A stretch of DNA of 64,000 nucleotides from Neoroseomonas oryzicola (GTDB taxonomy: Bacteria; Pseudomonadota; Alphaproteobacteria; Acetobacterales; Acetobacteraceae). Positions within the stretch are counted from its first letter, which is position 1. The number at the start of each line of letters is the position of its first letter. Below, piece by piece: positions 17,972-31,515 of this stretch. The stretch spans positions 682,001-746,000 of the forward strand of contig NZ_JAAVUP010000001.1 of the NCBI RefSeq assembly GCF_012163135.1, written 5' to 3'. Below the pieces are notes generated by a model. It saw only the letters and a program-made list of their open reading frames with translations. It was not told where the DNA came from and did not search any database. The position numbers were made by a program, and so were the translations under genes.

Positions 17972-19018
17972 TCAGGCGCGAAGTGGGATGATCCGCTCGA
18001 GCCGGCAGGCGACGGACGTACCCTCCGCCCAGGCCTCGGCCGAGGCGGGGGTGACGACGAACAAGGCGCCGGCGTCGGTGTCGACCTCGTATTCACGCGT
18101 CTGGCCGAGGAAGGCGGCGCGGCGGATGCGGCCGGGCAGACCTGATTCCTCCGGCGGAGCGAGGCGGATCGCCTCGGGCCGCACGGCGAGCGCCGCGGCG
18201 CCCGGCGGGTGGTCGCGCATCGCGGCGTCGAGGACGGCGCCGCCGATGGCCACGCGGCCCCGGCCGTCCGCGGCGGAGAGCACCTCGCCCTGAAGGACGT
18301 TCGCCTCCCCCATGAAGTCGGCGACGAAGGCATCGGCGGGCGCGTCGTAGAGTTCGGTCGGCGTTCCCTTCTGGGCGATGCGGCCGTCCTTCATCACCAC
18401 CACCAGGTCGGAGACGGCGAGCGCCTCCTGCTGGTCATGGGTGACGTAGACGACCGAGAGGCCGAGGCGCTTCTGCAGGTCGCGGATGTCCTCCCGCACC
18501 CGGCGGCGCAGGCGCGCGTCGAGGTTCGAGAGGGGTTCGTCGAACAGCAGCACCTTGGGGCGCAGCACCAGGGCGCGGGCGACGGCGACACGCTGCTGCT
18601 GGCCGCCGGAGAGTTCCGCCGGAATCCGGGCACCAAGGCCCTCGAGGCCGAGGGTCTTCAGCATGGCGGTGGCATCGGCCTCGGCTGCCTGGCGCCGGGC
18701 GCCGCCGACCACGAGGCCGTAGGCGACGTTCTCCAGCACGTTCATGTGCGGGAACAGCGCGTAGGACTGGAACACCATCGCGATGCGGCGTTCCGCCGCG
18801 GCGAGGCGGGAGACGTCCCTGCCCTCGATCTCGATCCGCCCGGAGGTCGGCAGTTCGAGGCCCGCGACCAGGCGCAGCGTGGTGGTCTTGCCGCAGCCGG
18901 AGGGACCCAGAAGCGTCACCAGCGCGCCCTGCGGCAGGTCGAAGGAGACGTCGTCAACCGCGCGCACCAGGCCGAAGGCCTTGGTCACGCGTTCGAAGCG
19001 GATGGCGGCGTCCGTCAT
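17972..19018 (-). CDS. ABC transporter ATP-binding protein (AfuC/FbpC/PotA-like)
   Basis: Predicted 348-residue cytoplasmic ATPase. Walker A is GPSGCGKTT (about 39-47), the Q-loop is FQSYALFPHM, the signature is LSGGQQQR, Walker B is VLLFDEP and the switch is THD. The C-terminal about 110 residues are a TOBE regulatory domain. It energises the permease encoded directly upstream; ATG 19018 overlaps that gene's stop by 4 nt. The family covers ferric, putrescine and sugar-phosphate importers, so the substrate must come from the binding protein. Confidence 0.9.
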   Translation of the reverse strand: MTDAAIRFERVTKAFGLVRAVDDVSFDLPQGALVTLLGPSGCGKTTTLRLVAGLELPTSGRIEIEGRDVSRLAAAERRIAMVFQSYALFPHMNVLENVAYGLVVGGARRQAAEADATAMLKTLGLEGLGARIPAELSGGQQQRVAVARALVLRPKVLLFDEPLSNLDARLRRRVREDIRDLQKRLGLSVVYVTHDQQEALAVSDLVVVMKDGRIAQKGTPTELYDAPADAFVADFMGEANVLQGEVLSAADGRGRVAIGGAVLDAAMRDHPPGAAALAVRPEAIRLAPPEESGLPGRIRRAAFLGQTREYEVDTDAGALFVVTPASAEAWAEGTSVACRLERIIPLRA

Positions 19019-21186
19019 GCGACGAGGTTCCCGGCAGGGGCGGCGCGGCGGCCGATCTGGGCGCGGCCGACCAGGCGCTCGATGCCGAGCACGACGGCGA
19101 GCATCACCACGATCAGCACCGTGGAATAGGCGATGGCGAGGGCCATCTCGCCGGCTTCCACCCGCCCGACGATGTAGACGGTGGCGAGGTTGTGCCGCGC
19201 CGAGACGAGGAAGATCACTGCCGAGACCGCTGTCATGGCATGGACGAAGGAATAGGCGAGGGCCGCGACGATCGCCGGGCGCAGGAGCGGCAGCACGACG
19301 CGGCGCAGCGTCTGCAACGCCCCGGCACCCATGGTGGCCGAGGCCTCGTCGAGCGACTTGTCGATCTGCGCGAGGGCGGCGATGCCGCCGCGCACGCCGA
19401 CCGGGAGGTTCCGGAACACGAAGCAGAGGATGAGGATCAGCGCCGTGCCGGTCAGTTCGATCGGCGGTTCGTTGAAGGCCATGATGTAGGAGACGCCGAC
19501 GACCGTGCCCGGAATGGCGAAGGACAGCATGGTCAGGAATTCGAGCGTCCCGCGCCCGGGGAAGGATTGCCGCGCCAGCAGCCAGGCCAGCAGGATTCCG
19601 AGCCCGGCGGTGATCGGGGCGGAGATCGCCGCGACCTCGATTGTGGTGAAGAGGCTGTCCCAGGCGGAACCGCGGAAGGCCATGCCGTCCTGCCATTCGA
19701 CGGCGAAGCCGGTCAGGATGTGGCGCCAGGTGAATGCCATGTCGCCGCGGCCGATGTCATGGACGAAGCCGCCGATGAGGATGATGCCGTAGACCGCGGC
19801 GGTGAAGGCCATCCATGGCCAGGCGACGCTGCCGCAGGCGATCCGCAGCCCGCGCGGCAGCGGCGCCGGCGCACCGGAATCCCCCTTCCCGGTCACCGTC
19901 GTGTAGCGCCGGCGCCCGAGCCACAGGGTTTGCAGCGCGAAGGCGCCGAAGGTCAGCGCGAGCAGCAGGATCGCGAGCGCGGCCGCCCGCCCCGGTTCGT
20001 GGCGCGCACCGGCGATGGCGAAGAAGATGCGCGTCGAGAGCACGTCGAAATCGCCCCCCAGGACGAGGGGGTTGCCGAAATCCGCGAGGCTCTCGACGAA
20101 GCCGAGCAGCAGGCAGGCGGCGACCGCGGGACGCAGCAGCGGCCAGGTGACGGTGCGGAAGACGGTGAAGCGGCGCGCACCCATGGTCGAGGCTGCTTCC
20201 TCGAGCGACGGACCGATGGCGCGGACGGCACCTTCCAGCAGCACGAAGGCGATCGGCGCCTGGGAGAGCGCCTGGGCCAGCAGCACCCCCGGCAGGCCGT
20301 AGATCCACCGGCTGCGGGGTATGTCGAACCATTCCCACAACGCGGTCGTGACCAGCCCGGTGCGTCCGAAGAGCACGATCAGCGCGAGCGAGACGACGAA
20401 GGGCGGCGTGATCAGCGGCAGCATCGTCATCGCGCGGAAGGCCGGCTGCGCGCGCACTCCGCCGCGTGCCGAGAGCAGCGCGAAGGCGAGGCCGATCAGG
20501 GTCGAGGAGACGGCCGCGAGGATGGCCAGAAGCAGCGTGTTCCACACCACGCCACAGCCCTGGTGGCTGGTGACGCAGGCAAGGCTCCAGGCCTCGGGGG
20601 CAGCCAGCCGCGCGGCGAGCGCGCCCGGCGCGACATGGCCGTCCTCCACCGCCGCGGCGGAGAGGATGACGATCAGCGGCACGAAGACGAAGAGCAGCAG
20701 CAGCGCCCCGCTGCCCACGACCAGGAAGGCGATGAAGGCATCGCCGCCGAAGCGGCCGCGCTGGGCGAGCCCCGCGGAGATCAGCCCGATCGCCGCCGCC
20801 AGGACCAGCGCCCCGCCCCAGCCCAGCGCCTGCTGGGCGGGCGGGGCGCCGAGCAGCGGCGCGAGCCATTCCCAGCGCAGGCCGCGCAGCCCGATTGCCT
20901 GGCCCTGGACCAGGACGAAGGCGAGAAGCGCGAGGCCCGTCGAGGCGACGAGGCCGCCAGAGCTGCGACCCGCAACGATCGGAATCGTCGCGAGGCCGAG
21001 CAACCCGACCACCGGCCAGAGCCACCAGCGCGACCCGTCGAGCAGCAGGGCGAGCAGCGGCGCCGCGTCACCGCCCGGCCATGCGGACAGCGCGTCCACC
21101 CCGCCTTCCAGGCCATGCCAGGGCGCCAGCAGCAGGCCGAGAAGGCCTGCGGCCAGCGCCAGGCGCCCGAGCGTCAGCGCCCCCAC
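19015..21186 (-). CDS. Fused ABC importer permease (AfuB-type, two membrane modules)
   Basis: Predicted 723-residue inner-membrane permease. It carries two complete permease modules, shown by two EAA coupling loops: LEEAASTMGARRFTVF in the first half and LDEASATMGAGALQTL in the second. An N-terminal extension of about 150 residues adds four or so helices. Fused permeases like this serve COG1840-type binding proteins (AfuA/FbpA). GTG 21186 starts 6 nt after the stop of the binding-protein gene, and its stop overlaps the ATPase gene by 4 nt. Confidence 0.88.
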   Translation of the reverse strand: MGALTLGRLALAAGLLGLLLAPWHGLEGGVDALSAWPGGDAAPLLALLLDGSRWWLWPVVGLLGLATIPIVAGRSSGGLVASTGLALLAFVLVQGQAIGLRGLRWEWLAPLLGAPPAQQALGWGGALVLAAAIGLISAGLAQRGRFGGDAFIAFLVVGSGALLLLFVFVPLIVILSAAAVEDGHVAPGALAARLAAPEAWSLACVTSHQGCGVVWNTLLLAILAAVSSTLIGLAFALLSARGGVRAQPAFRAMTMLPLITPPFVVSLALIVLFGRTGLVTTALWEWFDIPRSRWIYGLPGVLLAQALSQAPIAFVLLEGAVRAIGPSLEEAASTMGARRFTVFRTVTWPLLRPAVAACLLLGFVESLADFGNPLVLGGDFDVLSTRIFFAIAGARHEPGRAAALAILLLALTFGAFALQTLWLGRRRYTTVTGKGDSGAPAPLPRGLRIACGSVAWPWMAFTAAVYGIILIGGFVHDIGRGDMAFTWRHILTGFAVEWQDGMAFRGSAWDSLFTTIEVAAISAPITAGLGILLAWLLARQSFPGRGTLEFLTMLSFAIPGTVVGVSYIMAFNEPPIELTGTALILILCFVFRNLPVGVRGGIAALAQIDKSLDEASATMGAGALQTLRRVVLPLLRPAIVAALAYSFVHAMTAVSAVIFLVSARHNLATVYIVGRVEAGEMALAIAYSTVLIVVMLAVVLGIERLVGRAQIGRRAAPAGNLVA

Positions 21187-21192
21187 GCGGGG

Positions 21193-22227
21193 TCAGCGCG
21201 CGCCGGCGCGGACCTCGCGTTCCCAACGTGTCAGCAGGCGGGTGCGTTCCTCCGCGCTGCCCCAGCGGGCAAAGTCGTAGTCGATCAGGCGGACATCCTC
21301 GAAGCGCGGGGCCTGAGGGGGGATGGGCGAGGCGCGGTTCGAGGGCAGCTGGAAGGAATTGGCGGTGCCGGCGATGGCCTGGGCCTCGGGGCTCAGCGCC
21401 CAGTCGTAGAAGCGGCGGGCGTTCTCCATGTTCCGCGCGCCGCGGATGATCGACATGGAGCCGATCTCGTAGCCCGTGCCCTCGCAGGGGGCGACGATGT
21501 TCACCGGCGCCCCGGCGATCTTCTGCGTCACGGCGTCATGGAGGAAGGTGATGCCGACCAGCGTCTCCCCTGTCGCCGCGGCGCGCGCGGGCGCCGCACC
21601 CGAACGGGTGTACTGGTTCACGTTGCGATGGAGCGCCCGGAGATAGGTGAAGGCCGGTTCCTCCCCCATCACCTGCACCAGCGTCGCCAACATCGTATAG
21701 GCGGTGCCGGAGGTGTTGGGGTCGGCCACCTGGACCTCCCCGCGGAATTCGGGCTTGGCGAGGTCGGACCAGCAGCGCGGCGCGGTGATACGGCGGCGTT
21801 CCAGTTCCCGCGTGTTGTAGGAATAGCCGAGCGCGCCGGCATAGATGCCGACGGTGCGGAAATTGGCCTGCTCGGCCTGGCGCACCGCCCAAGGCTGGAG
21901 CTCGGGCAGGCGCGGGGAACGGTATTCCTCGGTCAGGTTCTCCTGCCCCGCCTGCATGTGCGGATCGCCGGTGCCGCCCCACCAGACGTCGCCGCGGGGG
22001 TTCGACGCCTCAGCGCGGATCTGGGTCAGGGTCTCGCCGGAGGATTTGCGCGTCATGGCGACACGGACGCCGGTCGCGCGCTCGAAGGCGGCCATCATCG
22101 GGCGGCACCATTCCTCCTGCACCGAGCAATAGACCGTCAGGTTGCCCTGGGCCCGCGCGGCACCCGGCAGGACGGCGGCCAGGATGCCGGCGGCGAAGGC
22201 GAAGACGGCGGAACGGCGTGACGCCAT
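21193..22227 (-). CDS. AfuA-like periplasmic substrate-binding protein
   Basis: Predicted 344-residue periplasmic binding protein with a signal peptide of about 26 residues. It belongs to the FbpA/AfuA family (COG1840). I see no adjacent Tyr-Tyr pair of the kind used by FbpA for ferric iron. SSGET (62-66) and NTSGTAYT (171-178) look like phosphate-binding loops. His230, Asp231 and Glu254 have the same spacing as residues that I recall contacting the sugar in the hexose-phosphate binder AfuA of Actinobacillus. I therefore favour a phosphorylated sugar or cyclitol as ligand; iron remains possible. The downstream permease and ATPase complete the importer. Confidence 0.8.
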   Translation of the reverse strand: MASRRSAVFAFAAGILAAVLPGAARAQGNLTVYCSVQEEWCRPMMAAFERATGVRVAMTRKSSGETLTQIRAEASNPRGDVWWGGTGDPHMQAGQENLTEEYRSPRLPELQPWAVRQAEQANFRTVGIYAGALGYSYNTRELERRRITAPRCWSDLAKPEFRGEVQVADPNTSGTAYTMLATLVQVMGEEPAFTYLRALHRNVNQYTRSGAAPARAAATGETLVGITFLHDAVTQKIAGAPVNIVAPCEGTGYEIGSMSIIRGARNMENARRFYDWALSPEAQAIAGTANSFQLPSNRASPIPPQAPRFEDVRLIDYDFARWGSAEERTRLLTRWEREVRAGAR

Positions 22228-22307
22228 GATGTTGGATCCTCCCATCCGGCGGCCTGTTCCGGCCGCTCGGCGTGTCGTGTCGAGTAACGCGCGACTTCGC
22301 GCCGCGT

Positions 22308-23084
22308 TCAAGCCTCCATCAGCGCCGCGAGCGTCGCGCCGAGCGCCGGCGCACCGACGCCGACCGGATTGCCCGAGGCAAGCCAGTCGCCGCTGTCGAA
22401 GCCGTTGGTCCAGCAGCCGGCCTCGCGCGCGATGGCCATTGCGGCCGCGGCGTCCCAGGCATTGATGTGGAGTTCGAGATAGGCATCGATCCGCCCGGCC
22501 GCGGCCTCGACCAGGCCGAGCGCGCCGGAGCCGCCCGAGCGCAGCCCGGCGCCAAGATCCGTGACGCCGCGCGCCATGGCGTGGAAGCGCGCCATGGGCA
22601 CGCGCAGCGACCAGCCGCATTCGATGATGGCGCGGCCGATGTCGGTGGTCGGCGCAGCGCGGATCGGGGCGCCGTTGAGCGTGGCGCCGAGGCCCTCGGC
22701 GGCGGCGAAGACCTCGGCCGGCGCGTGGCGGGCGATGGCGCCGGCGACGGCCCGGCCGTCCATGACCAGGCCGATCGAGACGCACCAGCGGTCGCTGCCG
22801 CGGGCGAAGTTCGAGGTGCCGTCGATCGGGTCGAGCACCCAGAGCGGGCCGGTGCCGTTCGCCGCGCCGCCCATCTCCTCGCCGAGGATGGCCTCGCCGG
22901 GGAAGTCCTGCGCCAGGCGTTCGCGGATGAAGCGCTCGGTGGCGCCGTCGGCCTCGGTGACGAAGTCCTGGGCGCCCTTGAGGCTGGCGACGCCGCCGCC
23001 CTCGGCCCGCATGCGCGACGCCAGAGCGGCCGCCTCCACGGCGATGGCGGCGGCCGCGTCGCGGCGGCGGGCGAGGTCACTCAT
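22308..23084 (-). CDS. Inositol-monophosphatase-family phosphatase
   Basis: Predicted 258-residue Mg-dependent phosphatase. Family metal ligands are visible in GEE (68-70), WVLDPIDGTSNF (82-93; Asp85 and Asp88) and AWDAAAA near residue 213. The family hydrolyses inositol phosphates, histidinol phosphate or PAPS-type nucleotides. Here ATG 23084 overlaps the SDR stop by 4 nt and it is linked to IolG, while an AfuABC-type importer follows 80 nt downstream. Dephosphorylation of an imported phosphorylated cyclitol is the attractive reading, by context only. Confidence 0.87.
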   Translation of the reverse strand: MSDLARRRDAAAAIAVEAAALASRMRAEGGGVASLKGAQDFVTEADGATERFIRERLAQDFPGEAILGEEMGGAANGTGPLWVLDPIDGTSNFARGSDRWCVSIGLVMDGRAVAGAIARHAPAEVFAAAEGLGATLNGAPIRAAPTTDIGRAIIECGWSLRVPMARFHAMARGVTDLGAGLRSGGSGALGLVEAAAGRIDAYLELHINAWDAAAAMAIAREAGCWTNGFDSGDWLASGNPVGVGAPALGATLAALMEA

Positions 23085-23863
23085 CCATAGGCTCCCATCA
23101 CGTTCTGGTCGAAGTCGATCAAGGCGCCGGTCATCATCGCGGCGGCGTCGGAGAGCAGGTAGACGGCAAGGCCCGCGACGTCGCGCGGTTCGATCAGCCG
23201 GCCGAAGGGCTGGGCCGGAGCAGCGCGATCCAGCCAATCCGGAGGATTGCCGTCGCGCGCCTGGATGGCGTGCTCGCCCGGCGTGTCGGCCCAGCCGAGA
23301 TTGATGCCGTTGACCCGGATGCAGTCGGCGCGGAGCGCATGCGCCGTGTTCTTCGTCAGCGTGGCGAGCGCACCCTTCGAGGCCGCATAGGCGGTGAGGA
23401 AGGGCTGGCCGCCATGGCTCGACATGGTGATGACGTTGACGATCGCGCCGGGGCGCTTCAGCGCCTTCAGCCGCCGCACCACCGCCTGGGTCAGGATGAA
23501 GGGCGCGCGGGCGTTCACCGCGAACAGGCGGTCCCAGAGCTCGACGCTGGTGTCGGTGATGGTGCCGCGGTCGGTCAGCCCCGCCGCGTTGACCAAGGCA
23601 TCGACCGGGCCGAGGGCGGCTTCGGCCTGGTCCACGATGCGCGCGGTGGCCTCGGCGTCGGCGAGGTCGGCCGGGATGAAGGCCGCGGGCACGCCCAGCG
23701 AGTCGGCCACGGCCCGTCCGCGCGCCACGTCGCGGCCGGTGATGGCGATACGCGACGCGCCCGCTTCCGCGGCGGCGCGGGCAACACCCTCCCCGATGCC
23801 CTGGGTGCCGCCGGTGACGAGGACGACGCGGCCCTGCAGCGAGACCTTCGGCAGGGCGTTCAT
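23081..23863 (-). CDS. SDR-family oxidoreductase
   Basis: Predicted 260-residue short-chain dehydrogenase. The NAD(P) motif TGGTQGIG is near residues 17-24, NAAG near residue 90, and the catalytic Ser/Tyr/Lys set is in SSHGGQPFLTAYAASK (about 140-155). It probably oxidises or reduces a hydroxyl of a sugar or cyclitol. The 4 nt overlaps at both ends with iolG and the phosphatase gene place it in one translational unit. The exact substrate is unknown. Confidence 0.85.
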   Translation of the reverse strand: MNALPKVSLQGRVVLVTGGTQGIGEGVARAAAEAGASRIAITGRDVARGRAVADSLGVPAAFIPADLADAEATARIVDQAEAALGPVDALVNAAGLTDRGTITDTSVELWDRLFAVNARAPFILTQAVVRRLKALKRPGAIVNVITMSSHGGQPFLTAYAASKGALATLTKNTAHALRADCIRVNGINLGWADTPGEHAIQARDGNPPDWLDRAAPAQPFGRLIEPRDVAGLAVYLLSDAAAMMTGALIDFDQNVMGAYG

Positions 23864-24858
23864 CCGATCTCGCTCACCTTCACGGGGCGGTTCTCGCGCA
23901 GGGAGCGCAGCGCGGCCTCGGCCAGGACCAGGGCCTGGCGGCCATCCTCGGCGCCGACAGGCATCGGCGTCCGCTGCATCACGGCCGCGATGAAGGCGGC
24001 AAGCTCGATTCGGTAGGCATCGGCATAGCGCTCGAGGAAGAAATGCAGTGGCTTCTCGGTGGTCACGGCATCGGCGTCGGCCTGCTCCACCGTGGTCGGC
24101 ACGCGGTTGCCGGCGATCAGGCGGCCCTTGCTGCCATGGACCTCGACGCGCTGGTCGTAGCCATAGGAAGCGCGGCGGGAATTGTTGATGTGCGCCATGC
24201 GGCCCGAAGCGGTGCGCAGCAGGACCATGCAGGAATCGATGTCGCCGACGGCGGCGACCGCGGGGTCCACAAGGGCGGCGCCGTAGGCGAAGACCTCGGT
24301 CGGCTCCTCGCCCAGCATCCAGCGCGCCATGTCGAAGTCGTGGATCGTCATGTCGCGGAACTGGCCGCCGGAGACCTTCAGGTATTCGACCGGCGGCAGG
24401 CCGGGGTCGCGGCTGGTGACGATGACCTGCTCGACCGCGCCAATCGCGCCAGCGCCGACGCGGCGATGCAGTTCGGCGAAGGAGGGGTCGAAGCGGCGGT
24501 TGAAGCCGACCAGCATCGGCACGGCGGCGGCGCGGACGGCGGCCAGGGCCTCGTCCACGCGCCCGAGCGACAGGTCGATCGGCTTCTCGCAGAAGATCGC
24601 CTTGCCGGCGCGCGCCGCGCCGATGACCAGGTCCGCATGGGTGTCGGTCGAGGAGGCGACGATGACCGCGCCGACCTCCGGATCCGCCAGCGCGGTCGCT
24701 GTGTCGGTCACCGTGGCGCCGTGCTTCGCGGCGAGGGAAGCGGCGGCGGGCGCGTGCACGTCGACGACGTATTTCAGCCGGGCGGCACCGCTCGCCGCCA
24801 GGTTGGCGGCGTGGATGGCACCGATCCGGCCGGCCCCGAACTGCGCGAAGACGAGCAT
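23860..24858 (-). CDS. iolG: Inositol 2-dehydrogenase-like (Gfo/Idh/MocA)
   Basis: Predicted 332-residue NAD-dependent dehydrogenase. The Rossmann motif is FGAGRIG (6-12), the family dinucleotide/substrate motif is EKPIDL (95-100), and HDFDMARWMLG (about 174-184) supplies the catalytic His and Asp typical of IolG. The enzyme oxidises myo-inositol (or scyllo-inositol or a related sugar) to the 2-keto form. It is the first gene of a minus-strand operon divergent from iolD, which acts two steps later in the same pathway, and this supports the call. GGGGG precedes the ATG. Confidence 0.82.
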   Translation of the reverse strand: MLVFAQFGAGRIGAIHAANLAASGAARLKYVVDVHAPAAASLAAKHGATVTDTATALADPEVGAVIVASSTDTHADLVIGAARAGKAIFCEKPIDLSLGRVDEALAAVRAAAVPMLVGFNRRFDPSFAELHRRVGAGAIGAVEQVIVTSRDPGLPPVEYLKVSGGQFRDMTIHDFDMARWMLGEEPTEVFAYGAALVDPAVAAVGDIDSCMVLLRTASGRMAHINNSRRASYGYDQRVEVHGSKGRLIAGNRVPTTVEQADADAVTTEKPLHFFLERYADAYRIELAAFIAAVMQRTPMPVGAEDGRQALVLAEAALRSLRENRPVKVSEIG

Positions 24859-24940
24859 GGCGTTCCCCCGAGGCCCCGCTTGTGGCCGTCGTCATCCATC
24901 CGTAACACTGCCCGCCCGTCAACTCGCAGGGGGAAACGCC
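24859..24940. promoter_or_regulatory. Divergent iolG/iolD control region with mirrored leaders
   Basis: This 82 nt spacer must hold both promoters. It is bounded by near-identical inverted leaders: GGCGTTCCCCC (24859-24869) before iolG, and GGGGGAAACGCC (24929-24940) before iolD, differing by one base. Each provides a G-rich ribosome-binding site directly before its ATG. Shared regulation of the two operons is likely; no regulator gene is adjacent. Confidence 0.5.
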
Positions 24941-26773
24941 ATGGCCACCATCCGCCTCACCGCGGCCGAGGCCGTCATGCGTTTCCTCGCGGCGCAGGAA
25001 GCCGAGATCGGCGGGAAGCGTGTGCCGCTGTTCGGTGGCGTCTTCGCTATCTTCGGGCATGGCAACGTGGCGGGACTCGGGCCGGCGCTGCAGTCGGCAG
25101 GCAAGCGGCTGCCGACCTTCCGCGCGCACAACGAGCAGGCCATGGCCCATGCGGCCATCGCCTATGCCAAGGCCCATGCGCGGCGGCGGATGATGGCGTG
25201 CACGACCTCGATCGGGCCGGGGGCGACGAACATGGTCACCGCCGCGGCGGTCGCGCATGTGAACCGCCTGCCGGTGCTGCTGCTGCCCGGCGATATCTTC
25301 GCCGACCGGCGGCCCGATCCCGTGCTGCAGCAGATCGAGCATTTCGGCGACCCGACGATCTCGGCCAACGATTGCTTCCGGCCGGTGTCGCGCTTCTTCG
25401 ACCGCATCATGCGGCCGGAGCAGTTGCTTGTGAGCCTGCCCGCGGCGCTGCGCGTACTGACCGATCCCGTCGAGTGCGGCCCGGCGACGATCGCCTTCCC
25501 GCAGGACGTGCAGACGGAAGCCTTCGACTGGCCGGCGGAGTTCTTCCGGCCACGGTTGCATCGTCCCCGCGCGCCGGAAGCGGACGCTCGGGAACTCGCG
25601 GATGCCGCCGCGGCGCTGCGCGGGGCGAAGCGGCCGCTGATCATCGCCGGCGGCGGGGTGAAGTATGCGGGGGCGGAGCAGACGCTCGCGCAATTCGCCG
25701 CGGCGCATGGCGTGCCGGTGGCCGAGACCCAGGCCGGCAAGGGGAGCCTCGCCTGGGATCATCCGCGCAATGCCGGCGCGATCGGGGTGACCGGATCGGC
25801 GGCGGCGAACGAACTCGCGGCGAAGGCGGATCTGGTGCTGGCCATCGGCACGCGGCTGCAGGATTTCACCAGCGGATCGCGGGCGCTGTTCGCGCAGGCG
25901 CGGCTGATCGGGCTGAATGTCGGCGCTTTCGATGCGGCGAAGCATGCCGCGCTGGCTCTGGTGGCCGATGCGGCGCGGGGGCTGGCAGCGCTGGATGCGG
26001 CGCTGGCGGGCTGGGCGGCGCCGGCGGCCTGGACGCAGAAGGGTGCGACCGCGACGGCGCGCTGGCAGAAGGCGGTCGACCGCATCACCGCAGCGCCGAA
26101 GGCGGGCACCCTGCCGACCGATGCGCAGGTGCTCGGCGCGGTGAACCGGGCGATGCCTAAGGACGGCATCGTGGTCTGCGCGGCAGGCGGGTTGCCGGGC
26201 GAGTTGCACAAGCTGTGGCGGGCGACAGATGCGGCGTCCTACCACCTCGAATATGGCTATTCCTGCATGGGGTACGAGATCGCCGGCGGGCTCGGGGCGA
26301 AGCTCGCCATGCCGCAGCGGGAGGTGGTCGTGCTGGTCGGCGACGGCTCCTACCTGATGATGAACAGCGAGATCGCGACATCGGTTGCCATGGGCGCGAA
26401 GCTAACGATCGTGCTGCTCGACAATCGCGGCTTCGGCTGCATCAACCGGCTGCAGCGCGGCACCGGCGGAGTGCCCTTCAACAACCTTCTCGCCGAGGCC
26501 GCACCGCCAGTCGACTTCGCTGCCCATGCCACGAGCCTCGGCGCGGAGGCCATCGCCGTCGACGGCATCGCGGGGCTCGAAGACGCCCTGCCCCGCGCCT
26601 TCCGGTCGAAGCGCACCACGGTGCTGGTCGTCGCGACCGACCCCCAGGTCTCGACGCAGGAGGGCGGGGCCTGGTGGGACGTGCCGGTCACCGCCCTGCC
26701 CCGCGACGCCGCGCAGGAACGCGCCCGCGCCGACTACGAGACCAACCGCGCGCGCCAGCGCCTCGGAGCCTGA
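24941..26773 (+). CDS. iolD: 3D-(3,5/4)-trihydroxycyclohexane-1,2-dione hydrolase
   Basis: Predicted 610-residue thiamine-diphosphate enzyme. The activating glutamate is Glu65 in HNEQA, and the ThDP-Mg motif runs from GDGS (467-470) to the Asn in DNRGFGCIN. These features and the IolG/IolE neighbours identify the ring-opening hydrolase of myo-inositol catabolism, which gives 5-deoxy-glucuronate. The ATG follows a strong GGGGGAA leader. IolE starts 1 nt after its stop. Confidence 0.88.
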   Translation: MATIRLTAAEAVMRFLAAQEAEIGGKRVPLFGGVFAIFGHGNVAGLGPALQSAGKRLPTFRAHNEQAMAHAAIAYAKAHARRRMMACTTSIGPGATNMVTAAAVAHVNRLPVLLLPGDIFADRRPDPVLQQIEHFGDPTISANDCFRPVSRFFDRIMRPEQLLVSLPAALRVLTDPVECGPATIAFPQDVQTEAFDWPAEFFRPRLHRPRAPEADARELADAAAALRGAKRPLIIAGGGVKYAGAEQTLAQFAAAHGVPVAETQAGKGSLAWDHPRNAGAIGVTGSAAANELAAKADLVLAIGTRLQDFTSGSRALFAQARLIGLNVGAFDAAKHAALALVADAARGLAALDAALAGWAAPAAWTQKGATATARWQKAVDRITAAPKAGTLPTDAQVLGAVNRAMPKDGIVVCAAGGLPGELHKLWRATDAASYHLEYGYSCMGYEIAGGLGAKLAMPQREVVVLVGDGSYLMMNSEIATSVAMGAKLTIVLLDNRGFGCINRLQRGTGGVPFNNLLAEAAPPVDFAAHATSLGAEAIAVDGIAGLEDALPRAFRSKRTTVLVVATDPQVSTQEGGAWWDVPVTALPRDAAQERARADYETNRARQRLGA

Positions 26774-26774
26774 G

Positions 26775-27683
26775 ATGATCCGCCTCGCCATCAACCCGCT
26801 GACCTGGACCAATGACGACATGCCCGAGCTCGGCGCGGAGACGCCGCTCGAGACCTGCCTCGCGGAGGCACGACAGGCGGGCTTCGCGGGGGTGGAACTG
26901 GGCAACAAGTTCCCGCGCGAGGCCGCCGTCCTGAAACCGATCCTGGAGCGGCACGGCCTGGCGCTGGCTTCAGGCTGGTATGGCTCGCGCCTGCTGGAGC
27001 GGGACGTGGACGCCGAGATGGCGGCGGCCGAACCACACATCGCCCTGCTGACCGCCATGGGCTGCACGGCCTGCGTCTTCGCGGAGGTGTCGCGCGCCGT
27101 GCATGGGGAACGCGGCACGCCGCTGTCGCGCCGGCCGGTGCTGTCGGATGCCGATTGGGCCGTACTGGCGCCGCGCATGGCGGAGATGGGCCGACGCCTT
27201 GCCGCGCGCGGGCTGCAGCTGGCCTATCACCACCACATGGGGACGGTGATCGAGACCGAGGCCGAGATCGACCGGCTGATGGCGAGCACGGGGCCGGAGG
27301 TCGGGCTGTTGCTGGACACCGGGCACCTGACCTTCGCCGGTGGGGATCCGGTCGCGGCCGGGCGACGGCATGCGGCGCGCATCGCGCATGTGCATTGCAA
27401 GGACGTCCGTGCGCCGGTGATGGCGGATGTGAAGGCGCGCGACCTGCCCTTCCTCGCCGCGGTGCTGGAGGGCGTCTTCACCGTGCCGGGCGACGGCAGC
27501 GTCGATTTCGCCGCGGTCTTCGCCATGCTGGCCGAGGCTGGCTACGACGGCTGGCTGGTCGTCGAGGCCGAGCAGGACCCGGCCAAGGCGCATCCCCTGA
27601 CTTATGCGCGGCTGGGGCACGACACGGCGGCGCGCCTCGCGACCGCGGCCTTCGGTGCCCGCTTCAGCCCCGCCGCGGCCTGA
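26775..27683 (+). CDS. iolE: Inosose (2-keto-myo-inositol) dehydratase
   Basis: Predicted 302-residue TIM-barrel enzyme of the AP-endonuclease-2/xylose-isomerase-like family. The start INPLTWTNDDMPELG is the IolE signature. Metal-binding positions are seen in YHHHMGT, LLDTGHLTF and HVHCKDVR, and in VVEAEQDP near the end. It converts scyllo-inosose to the dione used by IolD. It forms an operon with iolD. Its last 20 bases overlap the convergent Pot permease gene tail to tail. Confidence 0.9.
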   Translation: MIRLAINPLTWTNDDMPELGAETPLETCLAEARQAGFAGVELGNKFPREAAVLKPILERHGLALASGWYGSRLLERDVDAEMAAAEPHIALLTAMGCTACVFAEVSRAVHGERGTPLSRRPVLSDADWAVLAPRMAEMGRRLAARGLQLAYHHHMGTVIETEAEIDRLMASTGPEVGLLLDTGHLTFAGGDPVAAGRRHAARIAHVHCKDVRAPVMADVKARDLPFLAAVLEGVFTVPGDGSVDFAAVFAMLAEAGYDGWLVVEAEQDPAKAHPLTYARLGHDTAARLATAAFGARFSPAAA

Positions 27684-28458
27684 GCAGCAGCGCCGCGACG
27701 GCAAGCATCGCTCCGACGCCAAGCACGATCACCGCGCCCAGCGCATTGACCTCCGGCGTCAGGCCGAGCCGCAGCATGGCAAACAGCGCCATGGGCAGCG
27801 TCGTCCCGGCCGGTCCCGAGACGAAGGAGGCGATGACCACGTCGTCGAGCGATAGGGTGAAGGCGAGCAGCCAGCCCGCCGTCAGCGCCGGGGCGATCAA
27901 CGGCAAGGTCACGGTGCGGAACGCGGTGAAGGGCGTCGCGCCAAGGTCCATCGCCGCTTCCTCGAGGCTGCGGTCCGTCTCGGCCAGGCGCGCCTGGATC
28001 ACGACCGCGACGAAGGCGGCGCCGAGCGTGGCGTGCGCGAAAAGCACCGTGAGCGCGCCGCGCCCCTGCGGCCAGCCGGTCGCGGTTTCCAGCGCGACGA
28101 ACAGCAGCAGCAAGGACAGGCCGGTCACGACCTCGGGCAGCACCAATGGTGCGCCGATCAGCGCACCGAAGACCGCGCGGCCGCGAAAGGGCCCGAAGCG
28201 CGCCAACGCCCAGCCCGCCGCGCCGCCGATCAGCACGGCAAGCGTCGCCGCCCCCGCCGCGATGCGCAGCGACAGCAGCGCGGCCTCGACAAGACGCTCA
28301 TTCGCGGCCAGCGCGCTGAACCAGCGCAGCGAGAAGCCCCCCCACTGGAAGGGTATGCGGTCGGCGCTGAAGGCGTAGACGACCAGCAGCAGGATCGGCA
28401 GCCAGAGGAAGAGCAGCCCCGCCGCCAACGCGGCACGCACGAAGCGCCCGCGGGTCAC
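27664..28458 (-). CDS. potC: Polyamine-type ABC permease, PotC-like
   Basis: Predicted 264-residue inner-membrane permease with about six helices and an EAA loop, LEEAAMDLGATPFTAF. The final part (LSLDDVVIASFVSGP) is characteristic of PotC/PotI, the second membrane subunit of spermidine/putrescine importers. GTG 28458 overlaps the PotB stop by 4 nt. The gene ends inside the 3' end of iolE. Confidence 0.87.
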   Translation of the reverse strand: MTRGRFVRAALAAGLLFLWLPILLLVVYAFSADRIPFQWGGFSLRWFSALAANERLVEAALLSLRIAAGAATLAVLIGGAAGWALARFGPFRGRAVFGALIGAPLVLPEVVTGLSLLLLFVALETATGWPQGRGALTVLFAHATLGAAFVAVVIQARLAETDRSLEEAAMDLGATPFTAFRTVTLPLIAPALTAGWLLAFTLSLDDVVIASFVSGPAGTTLPMALFAMLRLGLTPEVNALGAVIVLGVGAMLAVAALLLRPRRG

Positions 28459-29285
28459 GGCCGCGCCTCGAGACGCTGGAACAGGCGGATCGGCACCAGC
28501 AGCAGCACCAGCAGCGCGACCGCCAGCGCCGCGGCGACGGGCCAGTCGCGGTTCTGGAAGAATTCCTGCCAGAGGACGCGGCCGACGAGGTTCGCCTCGG
28601 ATGGCCCCATCAATTCCGGGATGACGAACTCGCCCGCCGCCGGGATGAAGACGAGCAGGAAGGCGGCCGCGGCGGCCGGTGCGGTGGCCGGCAGGGTGAC
28701 GGTGAGGAAGGCGATCGCGGGGCGCGCGCCGAGATCGGCTGCGGCTTCCAGTAGCGTCGGATCGAGCCGCAGCAGCGCCGCGAACAGCGGCAACACCGCG
28801 AAGGGCAGGTAGGCGTGCACCATGCCCACCAGCATCGCCCCTTCGGTGTAGAGCATCGGCAGAGGCGCATCGGTGATGCCAAGGCCCTGCAGCAGGCCGT
28901 TGATCCAGCCCTCGTCGCGCAGCAGGCCGATCCAGGCGCCGACGCGCAGCAGGAAGCCGGTCCAGAAGGGCAGCATCAGCAGCGCGAGCAGCAGCACACG
29001 GCGGTCCGGCCGGGCCCGCGCGATGCCCATCGCCATCGGATAGGCGATCGCCAGGCACAGCCCGGCCGTGGTCGCCGCGACGCGCAGCGCGGTGAGGAAA
29101 GCGCCGAGGTAGTAGTCGTCCGCCACCAGCATCGCGAAGCCGGCGGTGGACCAGGCGAGGCGGAAGGGCGGCACGCCGGGATCGGCCTCGGCCAGCGCGA
29201 TGGCGCCGAGGATGCCGGCCGGCGCGGCGACGAAGATCAGCAGCCAGGCCCAGGCCGGCAGCAGGACGGCGAGGCGGTTCCTCAC
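28455..29285 (-). CDS. potB: Polyamine-type ABC permease, PotB-like
   Basis: Predicted 276-residue inner-membrane permease with about six helices, an LPFWTGFLLR segment and an EAA loop (LLEAAADLGARPAIAF). FIPAAGEFVIPELMG is typical of PotB/PotH. It pairs with PotC as the heterodimeric channel. The ATG overlaps the PotA stop by 4 nt. Confidence 0.87.
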   Translation of the reverse strand: MRNRLAVLLPAWAWLLIFVAAPAGILGAIALAEADPGVPPFRLAWSTAGFAMLVADDYYLGAFLTALRVAATTAGLCLAIAYPMAMGIARARPDRRVLLLALLMLPFWTGFLLRVGAWIGLLRDEGWINGLLQGLGITDAPLPMLYTEGAMLVGMVHAYLPFAVLPLFAALLRLDPTLLEAAADLGARPAIAFLTVTLPATAPAAAAAFLLVFIPAAGEFVIPELMGPSEANLVGRVLWQEFFQNRDWPVAAALAVALLVLLLVPIRLFQRLEARP

Positions 29286-30325
29286 GACGCGAGCGGCACC
29301 ACGTCGGCTGCCTCCCAGGCGAGGGTCACGGCGGCGCCGCGCGCCGGCGGCGGTCCGCCTTCTTCGGGGTGCGCCACGCGCAGCGTCGTGCCGCCGCCGA
29401 GGTCCACAAGCACGAGGGAATCATCGCCGCGGAAGGCGACGTCCTGGACGATGCCACGGGCGGTATTGGGTCCCTCCCCGGCCGCTGCGATGCGGATGCG
29501 CTCGGGACGCAACGCGATCGCGACGGTATCGGCCGGGATGGCGCCGGCGCAGGTGATCCCGGCGTCGGGGCAGTCGAAGCGGTCCTGCGCGGCGCGTCCT
29601 TCCAGCACGTTCGCGGCGCCGAGGAAGCGCGCGACGAAGCGGGAGGCGGGGCGTTCGTAGATCTCGCGCGGGGGGCCGACCTGGGCGATGCGGCCGCCGT
29701 CGAGCAGTGCGACGCGGTCGGCGAGTGCGAGCGCTTCCTCCTGGTCGTGGGTGACCATGACGAAGGCCGCGCCGGTCTCGCGCTGCAGGGCGCGGAGTTC
29801 GAAGCCGGTGCGTTCGCGCAGGCCCGCGTCCAGCGCGCCAAGCGGTTCGTCCAGCAGCAGCAGGCGCGGGCGCATCACCAGGCTGCGGGCCAGGGCGACG
29901 CGCTGCTTCTGCCCGCCCGAGAGTTCGTGCGGACGGCGGCGCTCGAAGCCCGACAGGCCTACCATGGCGAGCGCGGTGGCGATGCGCGACGCCGCCTCGG
30001 CCTTCGGCGCGCCGGCACGCCGCAGGCCATAGGCGACGTTGTCCGCCACGCTCATGTGCGGGAACAGCGCGTAGGACTGGAACATCATGTTCACCGGCCG
30101 CGCCCAGGGCGGCGTCGCGGCGATGTCCGTCCCGTCCAGCAGCAGGCGGCCCGAATCCGGTGTCTCGAAGCCCGCGATGATGCGCAGGAGCGTCGACTTC
30201 CCCGATCCGGACCCGCCCAGCAGGGCGAAGAACTCGCCCTGCCCGATCTCGAGGTCCAGCGCGTCGAGCGCGAGGGTCGGGCCGAAGCGCTTGGTGATCG
30301 CCTCGGCGCGCAGCAGCGCGGTCAA
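29282..30325 (-). CDS. potA: Polyamine-type ABC ATPase, PotA-like
   Basis: Predicted 347-residue ATPase. Walker A is GGSGSGKST (37-45), the Q-loop FQSYALFPHM, the signature LSGGQKQR and Walker B LLLLDEP, followed by a TOBE domain. It drives the PotBC permease. Its ATG overlaps the stop of the binding-protein gene by 4 nt, so all four Pot genes form one overlapping operon. Confidence 0.88.
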   Translation of the reverse strand: MTALLRAEAITKRFGPTLALDALDLEIGQGEFFALLGGSGSGKSTLLRIIAGFETPDSGRLLLDGTDIAATPPWARPVNMMFQSYALFPHMSVADNVAYGLRRAGAPKAEAASRIATALAMVGLSGFERRRPHELSGGQKQRVALARSLVMRPRLLLLDEPLGALDAGLRERTGFELRALQRETGAAFVMVTHDQEEALALADRVALLDGGRIAQVGPPREIYERPASRFVARFLGAANVLEGRAAQDRFDCPDAGITCAGAIPADTVAIALRPERIRIAAAGEGPNTARGIVQDVAFRGDDSLVLVDLGGGTTLRVAHPEEGGPPPARGAAVTLAWEAADVVPLAS

Positions 30326-31413
30326 CGCCCCGCCTTGAAGCGGGACCAGAGGCGGGTGCGCAGGCGCTCGACGTCGCGCGTGGGCGTGCCGGCGACGAAG
30401 GTCGCGGCCAGCGTCTCGGCCGGGGGGAACACGCTCGGGTCGTTACGGACGGCTTCCTCCACCAGCGGGCGGCTGGCCGGCACGGCGTTGGGATAGCGGA
30501 CCTGGTTGGTGATGCCGGCCATGACGTCCGGCTGCAGCAGGAAGTTGATGAAGGCGTGCGCGGCCTCGGGGTTCGGGGCGTCGGCGGGGATCGCCATCAT
30601 GTCGAACCAGAGTTGCGCGCCCTGGCGCGGCATGACGTAGCCGATCTCGACGCCGCGGTTCGCTTCGCGGGCGCGGGCCGCGGCCTGGATGACGTCGCCG
30701 GAATAGGTCATCGCGGCGCAGACCTCCCCGGTCGCCAGCGCGTCGAGGATCGCGCTGGAGGGGATGATGGCGCGGACATGGCGGCGGATACCCATCAGCG
30801 CCTGTTCGGCGGCGCGGAGGTCCTCGGCCGAGCTCCCGTTGGGATCGCGCCCGAGCCAGCGCAGCACGGAAGGCAGCACGTCGGTCGGGCTGTCCATGAC
30901 CATGATGCCGCAGCGGGCGAGGCGCTGCGCGTTCTCGGGCTTCAGCAGCACGTCCAGGCCATCGAGCGGCACGTCCGGCAGCGCGGCGCGCACGCGGTCG
31001 AGCCGCAGCCCGAGCCCGACCGTGCCCCAGAGGTAGATCGCGCCGTGCCGGTTCCCCGGGTCGATCGCCGCGACGCGGTCCATCAGCACGGGGTCGAGGT
31101 TGCGCCAGTTGGGAATACGTTCCCGATCGATCTCCCGCAACGCGCCGGCGCGCAGCAGCCGCGCGAAGGTCGGCTCGCTGGTCGGCACGATGATGTCGTA
31201 GCCCGAACGCCCGGCCGCGAGGCGGCCTTCGAGCGTCTCGAGGCTGTCATAGACGTCGTAGCGGACGCGGATGCCGGTCTCCCGCGTGAAGCGGGCCACC
31301 GCGTAGGGATCGATGTAGTCCGACCAATTGTAGACGTTCAGCACCCGTTCCTGCGCCGCGGCCGGCAGGGCGGCGAGCAGCAGGGCGAGCACGGGCAGCA
31401 GGCGTCGGAGCAT
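30322..31413 (-). CDS. potF: Polyamine-type periplasmic binding protein, PotF-like
   Basis: Predicted 363-residue periplasmic protein with a signal peptide ending ALPAAA-QE. The mature start LNVYNWSDYIDP is the hallmark of PotD/PotF putrescine/spermidine binders. ATG 31413 (MLRRLL) is preferred over 31437, because it directly precedes the signal sequence. It is the first gene of the potFABC-like operon and lies divergent to the phage-derived cassette, with 237 nt between them. Confidence 0.87.
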   Translation of the reverse strand: MLRRLLPVLALLLAALPAAAQERVLNVYNWSDYIDPYAVARFTRETGIRVRYDVYDSLETLEGRLAAGRSGYDIIVPTSEPTFARLLRAGALREIDRERIPNWRNLDPVLMDRVAAIDPGNRHGAIYLWGTVGLGLRLDRVRAALPDVPLDGLDVLLKPENAQRLARCGIMVMDSPTDVLPSVLRWLGRDPNGSSAEDLRAAEQALMGIRRHVRAIIPSSAILDALATGEVCAAMTYSGDVIQAAARAREANRGVEIGYVMPRQGAQLWFDMMAIPADAPNPEAAHAFINFLLQPDVMAGITNQVRYPNAVPASRPLVEEAVRNDPSVFPPAETLAATFVAGTPTRDVERLRTRLWSRFKAGR

Positions 31414-31515
31414 CGGCGCGGGTCCTCGGGGCGACAACGGCGGATGGGGCAGACTACCACGCGTGGCGGCGGCGCAAGCCCCGGGGCGCCGCTTCGCGAT
31501 CTAGGAATTTTTTGC

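Follow-up and report, generated by a model that had tools for sequence, protein, structure and literature searches.

Inositol phosphates form a large pool of organic phosphorus in soil and plant matter. An ABC importer specific for myo-inositol phosphate, InoEFGK of Thermotoga maritima, was reportedly described by Rodionova et al. in 2013. PMC3750489 cites that study and contains a regulon row for InoEFGK, and a separate genome paper names inoEFG an 'inositol-phosphate transport system'. The binding protein AfuA of the AfuABC importer, whose structures (4r72-4r75) were deposited as an Fe3+ component, has been shown to bind sugar phosphates despite that name: passages of PMC4546632 report binding of G6P, F6P, S7P and M6P but not of G1P, and assign ligand contacts to a ring motif (H205, D206 and E229) and to the phosphate ligands S37 and T150. 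The word 'inositol' is absent from the main texts of the papers on AfuA and on its relative P5PA (PMC4546632, PMC8427247), and no link of AfuABC to inositol phosphate appeared among the matches listed from the open-access literature.

Here we describe a locus of Neoroseomonas oryzicola in which genes of the AfuABC type adjoin genes of inositol catabolism. The window, that is, the whole stretch of DNA that was analysed, is 64,000 nucleotides long, and the block of eight genes within it is laid out as follows:

17972-19018, minus strand: afuC-type ABC ATPase (PF00005 plus TOBE_2)
19015-21186, minus strand: afuB-type double permease of 723 aa, with two BPD_transp_1 stretches
21193-22245, minus strand: afuA-type periplasmic binding protein, predicted inositol-phosphate binder (homology to AfuA 4r72)
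22308-23084, minus strand: inositol-monophosphatase-family enzyme (PF00459) with the signature ExHINxWD
23081-23863, minus strand: SDR oxidoreductase of the PRK06198 subfamily (351 bits, cut-off 240)
23860-24858, minus strand: iolG, inositol 2-dehydrogenase (TIGR04380, 434 bits, cut-off 355)
24859-24940: intergenic region between the divergent iolG and iolD, carrying TTGTGG-17-TAACAC, a promoter-like element, at 24880-24908 (plus strand)
24941-26773, plus strand: iolD, ring-opening hydrolase (TIGR04377, 911 bits, cut-off 715)
26775-27683, plus strand: iolE, inosose dehydratase (TIGR04379, 409 bits, cut-off 290)

The preliminary description, made from the sequence alone, had grouped AfuABC, an inositol-monophosphatase-family enzyme, an SDR, IolG, IolD and IolE at this place, and its coordinates are right to the base. 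Its enzyme families hold as well: IolG, IolD and IolE all score above the NCBIfam equivalog cut-offs by which the classical myo-inositol pathway is recognised, the phosphatase exceeds the cut-off of PF00459 and the SDR that of PRK06198. The 4-nt overlaps it saw at iolG/SDR and SDR/phosphatase are present, and an additional one joins afuB and afuC. A second, later ATG of afuA is found at 22227. A core similar to the promoter-like element can be seen in many of the aligned intergenic regions of block carriers, and has diverged in some. A polyamine-type ABC transporter (27664-31437, with a PotF-like gene at 30322-31437) abuts iolE, and its last gene shares 20 nt with the 3' end of that gene. We excluded it from the unit because its conservation at 97-99% is confined to a locus of the same genus (L047); beside iolE in L052 there are weaker permease matches (36-40%).

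We consider that these genes probably form a pair of divergent operons that serve the use of a phosphorylated inositol, with a myo-inositol monophosphate as the most likely predicted ligand. AfuA would take up the inositol phosphate ester in the periplasm, AfuBC would carry it into the cell, and the phosphatase would release inositol and phosphate in the cytoplasm. IolG would then oxidise inositol to inosose, with the SDR perhaps serving another isomer, IolE would dehydrate the inosose, and IolD would open the ring to give 5-deoxyglucuronate; the reactions of IolG, IolE and IolD are those known for their families. The proposal builds on gene content and order, conservation, co-occurrence across genomes, and kept pocket and active-site residues, all observed here, and from these we infer the inositol-phosphate ligand, the direction of use and the role of the SDR. 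If it is true, inositol phosphate would have a direct route into cells through a proteobacterial type of transporter that often carries an iron(III)-uptake label, and many genomes would need a changed annotation.

The nearest solved relative of the binding protein is 8x1a (E 5e-94), whose deposited name refers to iron(III), with AfuA 4r72 at E 1.6e-91 over 314 residues (about E 2e-91 for 4r72-4r75) and P5PA 6wce at E 3e-78. The iron name of this closest chain, and the iron(III) label used in passages of PMC12262181, PMC9927469 and PMC9611204, would favour an importer of ferric iron, in line with the common AfuA/FbpA annotation. However, AfuA is almost as close (E 2e-91) and yet is a sugar-phosphate binder in the passages of PMC4546632; 8x1a carries the AfuA pocket letters at the compared positions, except that 186 is V instead of I and 267 is S instead of A; the other iron-named chains (FbpA-type) come at E 5e-12 or weaker; and iron uptake leaves the phosphatase and the iol genes unexplained. 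With the homology divided between an iron-named chain and AfuA, we still regard iron as a very improbable substrate. The best NCBIfam matches of AfuA and AfuB, phnS2 and PhnU2, would instead suggest an importer of the PhnSTU2 type for 2-aminoethylphosphonate or another phosphonate, but both miss their cut-offs by far (206.5 of 392.75 bits and 241.9 of 593.25 bits, respectively), and no phosphonate gene occurs among the four recurrent non-block neighbour clusters scanned, in a scan that reached a minority of the rarer clusters. Phosphonate import thus deserves hardly any credence.

The pocket residues were mapped by sequence and are given in AfuA numbering. The binding protein has S37, G38, T60, S148, G149, T150 and G185 on the phosphate side and Y103, H205, D206, E229 and Q269 on the ring side, so that all of the ring and phosphate ligands of AfuA (H205, D206, E229, S37 and T150) are present, while three contacts are changed with respect to AfuA (T11Q, G36S and I186A). 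Among 80 named loci (see below), H205 is kept in 79, D206, E229 and T150 in all 80, and S37 in 71; the three changed letters are nearly constant too (Q11 and A186 in 77 loci each, S36 in 79), the exceptions being mostly gaps or one or two other letters. In more distant iol-linked copies of AfuA, position 11 is D or N, and position 37 is A in some of them. Since the pocket letters are almost identical between loci with and without iol genes, they give no pointer to inositol on their own.

These residues also bear on a reading in which the importer would serve hexose or heptose phosphates as Actinobacillus AfuABC does, the phosphatase would act on sugar phosphates in general, and free inositol would be the substrate of the iol genes, which share the same promoters. 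The kept ring and phosphate ligands agree with it, as do the G6P, F6P and S7P binding of AfuA (PMC4546632) and the existence of AfuA carriers without any iolD. It leaves unexplained, however, why phosphatase and AfuABC adjoin iol genes in various arrangements, complete sets included, and the Q11, S36 and A186 counted above differ from AfuA; we hold it to be unlikely. A phosphorylated cyclitol would fit both the pocket residues and the phosphatase. Because an inositol phosphate has its phosphate on the ring, like G1P, which Actinobacillus AfuA does not bind, the changed contacts at 11, 36 and 186 would have to matter, and our hypothesis is that T11Q, G36S and I186A would do so in the binding of a ring phosphate.

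The phosphatase scores 173 bits against PF00459 (Pfam cut-off 27) and reaches no NCBIfam equivalog (PRK10757, 116 of 332 bits; HisN, 129 of 275). It has the metal-site motifs GEE, DPIDGT and WD. These motifs together with ExHINxWD, which lies near the C-terminus, are found in the block copy and in 57 other AfuABC-linked copies, that is, in all of usable length, and ExHINxWD is in none of the five PF00459 proteins that were extracted out of seven others in the N. oryzicola genome. The glutamate of the motif is presumably the equivalent of the inositol-contacting Glu213 of human IMPase. The signature is also carried by the phosphatase copies at L074, L221, L224 and L244; in L221 and L244 the phosphatase is beside iol genes, and the AfuA type was not found in these two genomes. 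In L244 (2978-8799) it lies near iolD with a different ABC importer, with polyamine/phosphonate-type permeases, in between. The phosphatase of L074 may have been recruited independently, but the quick tree drawn for this question carries a warning that long branches come together.

The preliminary description had proposed searching related genomes for conserved co-occurrence of these genes. We used a family sample of 200 genomes searched with one AfuA protein, a fairer sample than the set of 80 loci, and counted carriers at E 1e-90 or better (the E-value limits, 1e-90 and 1e-150, were chosen by us). AfuA of the block kind occurs in 36 of these genomes, and 39 AfuA neighbourhoods from the sample were examined. 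The identical eight-gene order is found in seven other genomes of the family (L047-L053), which belong to five genera including Neoroseomonas, and 10 more of the 39 loci have AfuA with iolD plus iolG or iolE in a rearranged form. The remaining 22 loci have no nearby iolG, iolD or iolE, with matches of about 26% set aside and with several short contigs or second copies among them. The co-occurrence is clear in the family, and also in the class and in the named loci described below, but AfuABC occurs without iol genes as well. In N. oryzicola and the seven carriers, the recurring sense genes are the eight genes of the block; outside the same genus, no flanking gene occurs in three of these loci, except for weak ABC-ATPase matches. 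In one genome (G050) the block seems split across two contigs (L057 and L224). A second locus of N. oryzicola (L017, C12:462421-465516) carries three tandem AfuA-type binding proteins ahead of afuB and afuC; G104 and G152 likewise have three such proteins, while short contigs of G050 and of G120 carry two.

A wider view is given by 80 named loci around AfuA, the best 80 of 498, which are mostly from Alphaproteobacteria, plus Burkholderiales and one Rokubacteria bin. Because iol-linked proteins were abundant in the alignment used to find them, fractions taken from these loci are biased, and their gene maps come from a simple in-house caller that dropped some genes. Thirty of these loci contain the whole set of eight genes, and 48 contain iolG, iolD or iolE. 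The phosphatase lies directly upstream of afuA in 63, and the nearby locus tags of R. etli proteins labelled IMPA (RHE_RS10865) and AfuA (RHE_RS10880) in the literature would fit the same pairing. When the neighbours of the 80 AfuA genes were clustered, the eight block families ranked first. The next two were a family from 15 loci, represented in the scan by one copy that is an IolC of the kinase-aldolase fusion type, and a family from 10 loci, represented by one copy of IolB; beyond these ten, every neighbour family is limited to seven loci or fewer.

IolG, IolD, IolE, IolB and IolC are encoded together beside AfuA in nine of the 80 loci. In five mapped loci with a complete set (L173, L179, L183, L199 and L203), the phosphatase and afuABC adjoin iolG. 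The order in L173, L183 and L203 is iolB-iolE-iolD-iolC, SDR, iolG-phosphatase-afuA-afuB-afuC, and in L179 and L199, both from Burkholderiales, a second IolG-like protein (33-34% identity) takes the position of the SDR. This replacement suggests that the SDR may be a second cyclitol dehydrogenase. In L074 the phosphatase lies behind afuC and the complete iol set is divergent, and L077 has a single run afuABC-iolG-iolD-iolE. The IolC fusion scores 547 of 600 bits against NF047869 in L182 and 718 of 600 in L074, both copies being over the TIGR04382 cut-off; as the IolC-DUF2090 fusion acts as an aldolase, according to a passage of PMC9007349, it accounts for the missing IolJ in those loci. A thiamine-diphosphate enzyme behind afuC in L079 (4430-6064) was considered as an IolD and rejected, as it is PRK06154. 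Matches resembling iolD at about 26% are also seen behind afuC in L062, L063, L068 and L070.

A class sample of 385 genomes, including N. oryzicola, was searched for AfuA with the same iol-rich alignment and is likewise fairer than the 80 loci. Of its genomes, 29 have the AfuA type and 56 have iolD, with an overlap of 23 (Fisher p 1.5e-16, kinship ignored). The two genes lie within 8 kb of each other in 7 of the 23 genomes, or 6 of 22 without N. oryzicola, and the p value for this nearness, kinship again ignored, is 7e-10 (2.5e-8 without N. oryzicola). The link between AfuABC-phosphatase and the iol genes is not due to chance; it is a real, conserved functional unit. Absence of iolD was followed up in 34 of the 80 loci, 28 of which have no iol gene, with four further iol-free loci (L147, L165, L166 and L212) left out. 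Among the 28 genomes whose AfuA locus is iol-free in the stretch examined, 17 have iolD elsewhere and 11 do not have it. The phosphatase is present in five of these 11 and was not seen in the examined stretch of the other six, one of which (L195) is cut short upstream. This means that some carriers use the importer independently of inositol or that a number of the bins are incomplete. In three Elioraea bins (L163, L168 and L171), AfuA is 78-84% similar, the examined stretch has no phosphatase, and the genome has no iolD.

The preliminary description noted correctly that iolB and iolC are absent from the region. Its expectation that the pathway would be finished elsewhere fails for the usual enzymes: the N. 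oryzicola genome has no TIGR04378 match for IolB and no PF04962 protein, and its TIGR04382 matches for IolC reach at best 149.5 bits where the cut-off is 300, so N. oryzicola cannot finish the pathway with known enzymes. The same holds for the seven other block carriers, as no PF04962 (IolB-type) match occurs in any of the eight genomes and none has an IolC over the cut-off. This is the majority form in the family sample, where, among 67 genomes with iolD, 44 have no IolB and no IolC above the cut-off, which makes the missing step of inositol catabolism directly testable.

With no known lower pathway for carbon in N. oryzicola, and with a phosphatase that yields phosphate in any case, the ester might be mainly a source of phosphate, or it might be a larger one such as glycerophosphoinositol. 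In other genomes, however, the unit adjoins complete iol sets, which suggests use of the carbon, and a diester requires a diesterase, none of which was recognised in the clusters scanned, where the rarer clusters were covered in a minority of cases. We judge this reading to be quite improbable and retain a phosphorylated inositol used through the iol enzymes. The SDR is unlikely to be a stand-in for IolB or IolC, because seven of the nine loci encoding IolB and IolC contain relatives of it with 51-56% identity. Of 42 loci that lack iolB/iolC, 10 encode a 310-aa xylose-isomerase-like protein, which none of the 13 loci possessing iolB/iolC does. It occurs near the inositol genes (at L245:290-1222, and also in L226, L234, L235, L239 and L242; in these six mapped cases the neighbour is iolG or iolD), and is a candidate for the isomerase of the missing step in its own genomes. 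We rejected it as a stand-in in N. oryzicola, where its only match is weak and falls inside the organism's own iolE. We offer tentatively, as a possibility that may well prove wrong, that Roseomonas-type Acetobacteraceae have an AfuABC subfamily for ring-phosphorylated cyclitols with a dedicated phosphatase, IolG-IolE-IolD and then, in place of IolB and IolC, a lower pathway yet to be described.

Compared with described systems, the N. oryzicola importer resembles AfuABC of Actinobacillus pleuropneumoniae and Citrobacter rodentium, where binding protein, permease and ATPase are likewise together (PMC4546632). The binding protein keeps the equivalents of AfuA H205, D206, E229, S37, T150, Y103 and Q269, but has Q11, S36 and A186 in place of T, G and I, and its operon, unlike AfuABC, includes a phosphatase and iol genes. 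The pyridoxal-phosphate binder P5PA (PMC8427247) is of the same family and shares Q at position 11, whereas D206 and E229, kept in N. oryzicola, are both lacking in P5PA by the residue mapping. The Caulobacter system IbpA-IatA-IatP, with idhA and iolCDEBA, shares the chemistry of inositol dehydrogenase, iolD and iolE, but imports free inositol and has iolB, iolC and iolA, and the passages of PMC2597717 contain no phosphatase. Carriers of the IolC fusion described in PMC9007349 differ from N. oryzicola, whose genome has no IolC over the cut-off. InoEFGK resembles the role proposed for the block, in which ABC import of inositol phosphate would feed inositol catabolism. The Thermotoga system reportedly belongs to another transporter family and another pathway (IolM, IolN and IolO). 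ABC import of inositol phosphate would then have its precedent in Thermotoga, and what is probably new here is its association with another type of transporter, AfuABC.
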